A DNA stretch of 46,436 bases from Clostridia bacterium. Lineage in GTDB: Bacteria > Bacillota > Clostridia > TANB77 > UBA1234. Below the pieces are notes generated by a model. It saw only the letters and a program-made list of their open reading frames with translations, had not been told where the DNA came from and searched no databases. The position numbers were made by a program, and so were the translations under genes. Position 1 is the stretch's first letter. Each line of letters begins with the position of its first letter. The DNA is taken from NCBI GenBank assembly GCA_017469565.1, contig JAFUGC010000022.1, positions 1-46,436 on the forward strand, in the 5' to 3' direction. This document shows, one piece after another, positions 7,318 through 9,821 of the stretch.

Positions 7318-7346
7318 TTGACACATTATGTAAATTGGTGTAAAAT
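7318..7346 (+). promoter_or_regulatory. Consensus sigma-A promoter of the accessory pair
   Basis: TTGACA (7318-7323), 17-bp spacer, TAAAAT (7341-7346). A leader of about 80 nt follows, containing a small ACAAG/CTTGT hairpin (7394-7405). Confidence 0.8.
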
Positions 7347-7746: not shown

Positions 7747-8892
7747 ATGGAAAAGTTTTTGCCAATCCAGTATTATTTGGATGTGAACACAGAAGCAGGA
7801 GAACTGAAAGACAAGGAGTTAGATGATTTCTTCAGAGCATTTTCTGATCGGGATTTTGGTACCTTTGAGTATAGTTGCAGCAATAGATTTTATTCCAATT
7901 ATTCCAGGCAGCTTTCTCAAAGCTCTCCCAAAGCAAGGCGTGTGGAAGATACCATGCAGCCAATTGAGGTAAACCTTTTGTTAGAACTATGGCGGAGAAC
8001 AATGTGTTCCTATAAACCGGATGCAGAGTTTACAAAGGTGTTAAAGACAAATTCTGTGATGAAAGTGTATCCGGATGTTTTTCGGAAAATCCCTGTCAAT
8101 GATTTTTATATCAATCTTTCTGAGAATGATAGTATGAAGAGTGATGGTATCATTGTAAGTGTTAGGGTTTATGATAATGATATTAGAATTCTTTATATGG
8201 TTTGTGATTCAGCAAATCGTACAAAAATCGTTGATATCATTGATTTTACAACAGAAGTAGATCCCATGGGAAAACTGGCAAATGAGATTACACTTAGTAA
8301 GAATCAAAAAGCAATTCTCGATATGGATAGAATGATTATTGAAAGAAAGGGAGGCTCTTTAAAAGACAGGAGAATCTGTACAGGGGAAAATTTTGTCCCC
8401 AATTCTGATAAGGGTCCTTATTTCATTTATAAGAAAGAGATGAGTCCTGAATTCTACCAAGGGCATAATTACTGTGATATGAAGAGCAATAAGCCTTTAG
8501 ACTCCATTGCCGATATTACAGCATTTATCATTGAGTTCATCCATTATATTGGTTCAAAAGAACCTGATATTGTGGAATCTGAACTAACCAAGGTAACCTA
8601 TAAACCATCTGCAAAGGGTAAGCTAAAATTTGCAGGAGTTCAGGAATGGGATGTTGCTAAGTATTCTGGTGAAAAAATCAAGGTTCTCCGGCAAGGATAT
8701 AAAAAGGTATCTGAGTATCAAGGCGGAACCCATGCAAGTCCTAGGCCTCATTATAGAAGGAAGCATGAACACCGTTACTGGTGTGGCTCTGGAGAAAATA
8801 GGCACTTAGAAAAAAGAGTTATTGGCCGTATTTATGTGAATGGAACGAAAGATGATATCGTAGTTCGAGAAAGTGATGTTAGTTTGGTCTAA
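7747..8892 (+). CDS. AcrVA2-like protein (C-terminal RPHxRRxHxHxYW motif)
   Basis: The 381-residue protein is soluble, with no signal. Its C-terminus (about residues 335-375) contains SPRPHYRRKHEHRYWCGSG followed by a basic strand and IYVNG. This matches in order the end of the anti-CRISPR AcrVA2 from Moraxella (RPH-x-RR-x-H-x-H-x-YW-x-G-x-G, then FVNSG). An EPDI element about 60-70 residues before it is shared too, and the lengths are broadly comparable. AcrVA2 lowers Cas12a by acting on its mRNA during synthesis; relatives occur widely on mobile DNA and most are untested. Whether this one targets Cas12a is unknown and no CRISPR locus is present here. GGAGG precedes ATG 7747. It uses CGG arginine codons. 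A strong terminator follows. Confidence 0.75.
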   Translation: MEKFLPIQYYLDVNTEAGELKDKELDDFFRAFSDRDFGTFEYSCSNRFYSNYSRQLSQSSPKARRVEDTMQPIEVNLLLELWRRTMCSYKPDAEFTKVLKTNSVMKVYPDVFRKIPVNDFYINLSENDSMKSDGIIVSVRVYDNDIRILYMVCDSANRTKIVDIIDFTTEVDPMGKLANEITLSKNQKAILDMDRMIIERKGGSLKDRRICTGENFVPNSDKGPYFIYKKEMSPEFYQGHNYCDMKSNKPLDSIADITAFIIEFIHYIGSKEPDIVESELTKVTYKPSAKGKLKFAGVQEWDVAKYSGEKIKVLRQGYKKVSEYQGGTHASPRPHYRRKHEHRYWCGSGENRHLEKRVIGRIYVNGTKDDIVVRESDVSLV

Positions 8893-8900
8893 TGGAAGAA

Positions 8901-8929
8901 AGATGAAGGAAATATTCCTTCATCTTTTT
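8901..8929 (+). terminator. Intrinsic terminator of the accessory pair
   Basis: AGATGAAGGA (8901-8910) and TCCTTCATCT (8916-8925) form a perfect 10-bp stem with loop AATAT and a T-run. Confidence 0.9.
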
Positions 8930-9006
8930 GCATTTTACAGGAATGATTTTGAGCCTAACAGGTGGAGAAGAAGGAAGTAGCAGAAAACCAGATGATAAAG
9001 GTAGAA

Positions 9007-9045
9007 CCGGTATAATTTATTAATTAGCTTAATAAATTATACCGG
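9007..9045. repeat. Perfect 17-bp inverted repeat ahead of the deacetylase gene
   Basis: Bases 9007-9023 are the exact reverse complement of 9029-9045, with a 5-base loop TTAGC. Each arm starts with CCGG and continues AT-rich, containing TATAAT. The right arm runs into the GGGGGGA ribosome binding site (9044-9050) of the gene at 9057. It is too AT-rich for a typical terminator and could be an operator or a 5'-UTR stem-loop controlling translation. Confidence 0.85.
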
Positions 9046-9056
9046 GGGGATTTTTT

Positions 9057-9821
9057 ATGTTTTATGTTTTTAATTTAAAGAAAATGGTTTTCAATTTCAC
9101 ATTGTTATTTGCCCTAGCAGCCATACTGATTGGCTCCAACTATGTTGCAAATTATACAATTGAAGCATCTGCATCTGAAAAAAGATTATTGCCAATTTAT
9201 AGCGTGGAAACACCAGATAAGGCTGTGGCAATTACTTTTGATTGTGCTTGGGGAGCAGATGATATTGATGATATTATTAGTACCCTAACGGAAAATGATG
9301 TATATGCTACTTTTTTTGCAGTAGGAGATTGGGTAAAAAAATATCCGGATGCTGTTCAAAAGTTATCCGAGGCTGGAATGGAAATAGGAAATCATTCGTA
9401 TGCTCATGCACATGTGAATAAACTTTCCTTTGAAGATAATGTCAAAGATATGCAAAATTGTAATGCCCTTATTGAAGAAATCATTGATGGAAAAGTGAGA
9501 TTTTATCGAGGGCCTTATGGAGAATATAATAATACGGTTATTAAGGCCGTAGAAAACTTAAACATGAAGGTAATTCAATGGGATATTGACACGCTAGATT
9601 ACACAGGTAAAACTCCAGAGGAGATGTGTAAAAGGATTAAAGCCAAAATCAGAAATGGTTCTATCATTTTAATGCATAATGATACCAAATACACGGCAAG
9701 TGGCCTTCAGCAAGTTATTGATACTATCAAGGGGGAAGGGTATGAGATTGTCCCTCTTCACGCACTCATTTATGATGATAATTATGAAATCAATCATGAA
9801 GGTAGACAGTTCAAAAAGTAG
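9057..9821 (+). CDS. Secreted/membrane-anchored polysaccharide deacetylase (NodB domain, PdaB-like)
   Basis: The 254-residue protein has an N-terminal signal or anchor (about residues 10-30, FTLLFALAAILIGSNYV), then a NodB homology domain. AITFDCAWGADD is motif 1, in the variant form seen in PdaB-like enzymes where the second Asp of TFDD is replaced. NHSYAHAHVNKLS supplies the HxxxH metal histidines, FYRGPYGEYN is motif 3, and ILMHND is the C-terminal motif. The family removes acetyl groups from envelope glycans outside the membrane; PdaB-type members act on spore peptidoglycan, so a cortex or wall role is plausible but inferred. ATG 9057 follows GGGGGGA and the inverted repeat. It is probably monocistronic. 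Confidence 0.9.
   Translation: MFYVFNLKKMVFNFTLLFALAAILIGSNYVANYTIEASASEKRLLPIYSVETPDKAVAITFDCAWGADDIDDIISTLTENDVYATFFAVGDWVKKYPDAVQKLSEAGMEIGNHSYAHAHVNKLSFEDNVKDMQNCNALIEEIIDGKVRFYRGPYGEYNNTVIKAVENLNMKVIQWDIDTLDYTGKTPEEMCKRIKAKIRNGSIILMHNDTKYTASGLQQVIDTIKGEGYEIVPLHALIYDDNYEINHEGRQFKK

Follow-up and report, generated by a model that had tools for sequence, protein, structure and literature searches.

The window analyzed here, a 46,436-nucleotide stretch from a gut bacterium of the Clostridia (contig JAFUGC010000022.1), contains a gene whose product resembles AcrVA2, the anti-Cas12a protein of Moraxella. The locus raises the question of whether this product is an anti-CRISPR protein from a mobile element or belongs to a wider family with a role in mRNA control; both readings had been offered in an earlier note made from the sequence alone.

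Organization of the locus

The 7747-8892 open reading frame was found to be intact, with 381 codons, an ATG start and a GGAGG ribosome site (Table 1). The consensus promoter described in the earlier note was located as well, as a promoter-like site. It preceded the small upstream gene and hence lay in front of both genes, which were therefore probably co-transcribed. Behind the 381-aa gene, a hairpin followed by a T-run likely formed an intrinsic terminator between it and the deacetylase gene that follows. At 9007-9045, just 5' of the deacetylase start (9057), lay a perfect 17-bp inverted repeat (fold -20.4 kcal/mol, z -6.4), which is a possible operator or terminator.

The neighbors, whose names were taken from translated sequences and not from annotation, were ordinary chromosomal genes: ligA, nadE, nadD-like, polysaccharide deacetylase, acyl-CoA synthetase-like and pheST-like genes and RNase P RNA. 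The GC content of the 381-aa gene was a little above that of most of them. As had been noted earlier, no phage genes were present within the 46-kb window.

Table 1. Features of the AcrVA2-like locus (positions in the window)
Feature	Position	Strand	Basis
Sigma-70-type promoter-like site, TTGACA-N17-TAAAAT	7318..7346	+	11/12 consensus positions; consensus match only
Small protein, 97 aa	7431..7724	+	Distinct, widespread family; 22 bp ahead of the 381-aa gene
AcrVA2/FinQ-family (phrog_6160) protein, 381 aa	7747..8892	+	phrog_6160 profile E=1.4e-14; leave-one-out profile E=4.5e-27; AcrVA2 7ci2 fold match
Candidate disordered insertion, ~40 residues (205-244)	8359..8478	+	pLDDT <50; stretch longer than in most relatives (alignment)
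C-terminal signature tail RPHYRRKHEHRYWCGSG, residues 333-349	8743..8793	+	Family alignment
Hairpin (14-bp), then T-run	8898..8935	+	Fold -16.5 kcal/mol, z -6.2

The 97-aa gene had been regarded in the earlier note as a mobile-type partner of the 381-aa gene. The small gene is real, but none of its relatives adjoined any other AcrVA2-family member among 150 loci; the idea of a conserved partner in an acr-aca-like operon was rejected on this ground, and the partnership is unsupported. Homologs of the 97-aa protein were found in two genomes of the same order as the host, G014 (52%) and G032 (45%), either adjoining dnaE or embedded in a longer ORF, and an AcrVA2-like gene was found in neither genome. 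Further relatives occurred in Streptomyces and Xanthomonas phages, in a primate-associated phage and in plasmids; the 97-aa protein itself, as a single-protein query against the viral collection, returned no relatives. In G032 (L036:7380-8786), the family lay within a 468-aa ORF, which suggests that it may be a domain that can form part of larger proteins.

Homology to AcrVA2

When the 381-aa protein alone was used as the query, AcrVA2 was matched weakly in the PDB (E=0.0083), mostly through the tail, and no relatives were found in the viral and genome collections. No useful match came from Pfam, NCBIfam or PADLOC, none was obtained in the defence library, and a match to MlaC at 0.24 was below the cut-off. 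The other weak PDB matches of the single-sequence search were judged to reflect chance or a common helical arrangement. A weak match carried mostly by the tail would suit a chance resemblance of a short His/Arg-rich C-terminal motif, and this explanation was weighed against profile and structural comparisons.

A search of the phage families of PHROG returned phrog_6160, a sequence cluster of phage proteins without an assigned function (E=1.4e-14, residues 59-368). The score of the window protein was weak, at 55 bits, compared with 72-332 bits for eight relatives. Relatives were gathered from phages, plasmids and genomes and aligned, and profiles were built from the alignments. Two family profiles, both of which contained the window protein, matched AcrVA2 over most of its length (1.9e-32 and 2.1e-48). 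When the window protein was withheld from profile building, the resulting profile matched it at E=4.5e-27 and matched its residues 1-260 alone, that is, without the tail, at E=2.2e-5, whereas the best of 500 shuffled whole-protein copies reached 0.11. When the clostridial relatives were also omitted, the corresponding values were 2.4e-22 for the window protein and 3.6e-4 for residues 1-260.

The structure of the window protein was modeled from 44 sequences (pLDDT 72.6, pTM 0.73). The predicted fold was matched to AcrVA2 (7ci2) over 266 aligned residues with Z 15.9 and an rmsd of 4.6; the next unrelated chain, 1txu (Rabex-5), had Z 7.4 over 80 helical residues and was judged a chance match or a common helical arrangement. 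Three AcrVA2 chains ranked at the top in Foldseek (1.8e-8), all other entries being at 0.2 or above.

The match to AcrVA2 therefore reaches beyond the short C-terminal motif in both kinds of comparison, which the earlier note had proposed as checks while holding that a resemblance confined to the motif would undo its claim. Both the structural comparison and the leave-one-out profile already contradict a chance resemblance of the motif, the probability of which is considered negligible. It may be concluded that the window protein is a very divergent homolog of AcrVA2 with a shared predicted fold.

Sequence features of the 381-aa protein

The elements by which the likeness to AcrVA2 had originally been recognized were recovered in the alignment. 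The tail RPHYRRKHEHRYWCGSG was aligned without gaps with RPHIRRGHWHGYWQGTG of AcrVA2, in identical order and spacing, and the hydrophobic strand that follows reads IYVNG in the window protein and VFVNS in AcrVA2. The EPDI element, at about 272-275, fell in the same region as 'AEPDI' of AcrVA2. Residues H335, R337 and G347 showed no variation across 44 members of the family, the window protein among them, and W82 of the body, also invariant in the family, was present. In total, 13 of the 15 near-invariant family residues were kept. The other two were replaced (W341E, in which the tail Trp became Glu, and G304A), and the identity of the window protein to its relatives was 13-24%. According to the model, residues 205-244 look like a disordered insertion.

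The phrog_6160 family

The window protein and the other 43 aligned members all matched phrog_6160, and none of them (0/44) matched a relevant Pfam family; no Pfam or NCBIfam model covers the family. Members were found in Firmicutes, Proteobacteria, Bacteroidota, Cyanobacteria, Actinobacteria, Nitrospirota, Acidobacteriota, Planctomycetota, Thermus and phages, and they were carried by phages, plasmids and chromosomes. Structure matches in BFVD pointed to predicted AcrVA2-fold proteins in Erwinia phages RisingSun and Yoloswag and in Dickeya phage JA13; one such phage protein bears the name 'putative mycothiosynthase'.

In the neighborhoods that were read, many members adjoined ParA, resolvases or phage structural genes. 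The only recurrent partner gene was ParA, at 7 loci. An RNase partner was also considered, and this candidate was dropped, as only ParA and phage-gene clusters emerged from the family neighborhoods.

In the tree, the window protein fell inside a gut Firmicutes/phage group of 10 rows (support 98/95), on a long branch that leaves its exact place unsure. AcrVA2 paired with a Moraxella homolog (100/100), well apart from the window protein, and FinQ and the window protein were on different branches. Conservation peaked in the tail, with 2.52 bits per column at residues 326-366 versus 1.27-2.10 elsewhere. The window gene is a new, highly diverged chromosomal member of a known, little-studied family, AcrVA2/FinQ (phrog_6160).

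FinQ and AcrVA2 belong to one family

The plasmid matches to the family included about 500 records whose matching gene, where annotated, was mostly named finQ; 511 of the 523 FinQ records were typed as conjugative. FinQ matched AcrVA2 directly in phmmer (E=3.9e-17) in two collinear stretches. A profile from which FinQ-like rows had been removed matched FinQ at 2.5e-61 and the first 250 residues of FinQ at 5.9e-22. For L088, a FinQ homolog of about 78% identity, the predicted structure was aligned with AcrVA2 across 274 residues (Z 17.9), compared with 2.3 for the next entry. Therefore, FinQ, the IncI fertility-inhibition protein, and AcrVA2 are in one family. A literature search returned no paper naming both FinQ and anti-CRISPR; the primary AcrVA2 papers (Science 2018; bioRxiv 2022) were outside the reach of this search and may mention the link.

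In the published account of FinQ, transcription of the tra operon stops prematurely at several positions and independently of Rho (PMC8744291). For AcrVA2, a translation-dependent loss of cas12a mRNA via the nascent N-terminal LSKT peptide has been described (PMC13131331), and this is the first documented bacterial case of mRNA destruction by the reading of a nascent peptide (PMC13131331). Both descriptions end in a missing target mRNA.

Chromosomal residence

In each of the sister genomes G004 and G005, two family members were found, and their chromosomal positions corresponded between the two genomes. The orthologs were 81-83% identical between the species, with dN/dS of about 0.06 and 0.04; dS exceeded 1.6 and was saturated, so these ratios are rough and only their direction is safe. 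This direction indicates purifying selection on the orthologs of the sister pair. One copy in each genome (loci L037 and L039) lay directly downstream of a genus-conserved deacetylase gene. In the window, the ortholog of this gene (9057-9821) was located directly downstream of the AcrVA2-like gene, that is, on the opposite side. The deacetylase gene thus adjoins AcrVA2-like genes in three genomes.

No close ortholog of the window gene was found in the other five genomes of the genus. The missing orthologs, the long branch, the W341E and G304A replacements and the slightly raised GC content would fit a cargo gene that an earlier mobile element left behind in the chromosome and that is now drifting without a present function. 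However, the intact 381-codon frame with its promoter-like site, ribosome site and terminator, the 13 of 15 near-invariant residues kept and the intact predicted fold argue against this explanation, which is considered unlikely.

Cas12a in the carrier genomes

The earlier note had proposed checking for cas12a in the genome. Neither a Cas12a nor a Cas1 match was found in the host genome (G000, 1.24 Mb), which is 89.6% complete, so that this absence is not proof. Among the six carriers G000, G001, G004, G005, G017 and G514, cas12a was found only in the sister genome G004, where the Cas12a locus adjoined cas1 and further cas-like genes and the two family members lay elsewhere. This detection served as a positive control for the Cas12a model. 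Among 50 other carrier genomes from many phyla, Cas12a was found in none (0/50). Therefore, Cas12a inhibition cannot be the general role of the family.

The Cas12a of G004 (L067:226-4407) starts with MNELQEFTNLYPLLKTLRF, having LLKT where AcrVA2 is said to recognise LSKT. In a genome with two AcrVA2-like genes, this difference may reflect target-site variation.

Inhibition of Cas12a by the window gene is unlikely. If the product were a true anti-CRISPR protein, it would lower Cas12a as AcrVA2 does and would have been left by, or be awaiting, a mobile element. The family and fold common to AcrVA2 and the coexistence of a Cas12a locus with two family members in G004 agree with such a role, but the carrier-genome counts, the lack of a detected cas12a or cas1 in the host and the wide separation of AcrVA2 and the window protein in the tree make it quite improbable. 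The description "AcrVA2-like" in the earlier note was borne out, and of its two readings "broader mRNA-controlling family" fits better than "anti-CRISPR" as far as function may be judged by homology.

Proposed function

The window protein is probably a target-specific down-regulator of mRNA whose target is other than Cas12a; a probability of roughly 55% is assigned to this reading, which was reached from homology to known members. By extension from AcrVA2, the variable helical/beta body would recognize a specific peptide as the ribosome makes it, and the constant His/Arg-rich tail would couple this recognition to loss of the translated mRNA, either directly or via the ribosome or a host RNase. 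The tail, as the effector, might contact the ribosome, RNA or an RNase, or might be catalytic; this last step is our own inference. Either a host gene might be targeted or, as with FinQ and the tra operon of the F plasmid, one belonging to a mobile element that invades the cell. The pattern of a most conserved tail and a variable body fits an arrangement of variable recognition and constant effector. Given the 13-24% identity, the W341E and G304A replacements and the lack of a close ortholog, the window protein may also have changed its function.

In a narrower form of this mRNA down-regulation, the protein would be a resident fertility-inhibition or anti-mobile-element factor, a chromosomal counterpart of FinQ that, by destroying mRNAs, silences genes for transfer or replication carried by plasmids, ICEs or phages entering the cell. 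The membership of FinQ in the family is consistent with such a factor, as are the orthologs that the sister genomes retain, under purifying selection, at constant chromosomal positions and the many members on phages and plasmids, expected of weapons between elements. However, there is no conserved defence partner and no defence-library match to the protein, and we regard this narrower form as possible but less likely than not.

Target-specific down-regulation of mRNA may also be viewed at the level of the whole family. It is conceivable, though only as a tentative proposal, that AcrVA2, FinQ and many uncharacterised relatives constitute one widespread system of nascent-peptide-guided mRNA destruction, with bodies tuned to different target peptides and the tail as the constant effector, and that in the host genus this system acts as a resident chromosomal regulator or defence. 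The presence of AcrVA2 and FinQ in one family suggests an old family that silences chosen target genes, and chromosomal members in genomes without detectable Cas12a indicate that anti-CRISPR activity is not what it does in general. The most interesting outcome of this analysis is that AcrVA2 and FinQ are linked at the family level. This link offers a testable explanation for fertility inhibition by FinQ, described decades ago only as early-ending tra transcripts. The family is also a source of possible target-specific mRNA silencers.

Comparison with known systems

The window protein shares with AcrVA2 (PDB 7ci1, 7ci2) the full-length fold, the W-Y-P-Y-G body positions, the EPDI region and the RPH-x-RR-x-H-x-H-x-YW-x-G tail. 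It differs in that the identity is about 12% in the structural alignment, Glu replaces the tail Trp, an extra disordered stretch is present, and the gene is chromosomal in a host without detectable cas12a.

FinQ, like the window protein, belongs to phrog_6160, and the predicted fold of its homolog is that of AcrVA2, as is the fold of the window protein; like AcrVA2, FinQ lowers target transcripts (PMC8744291). Unlike the window gene, which lies in a chromosomal neighborhood, FinQ is found on conjugative plasmids and has a known target, the F plasmid tra operon. In contrast to a mechanism of the AcrVA2 type, the FinQ literature speaks of transcription termination and not of mRNA decay.

With TTC5-dependent tubulin autoregulation in eukaryotes, the analogy is one of mechanism only, and no homology is claimed. 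In that system, a nascent N-terminal peptide is recognized and the mRNA that encodes it decays, which is the principle proposed for AcrVA2 (PMC10403363, PMC13131331).
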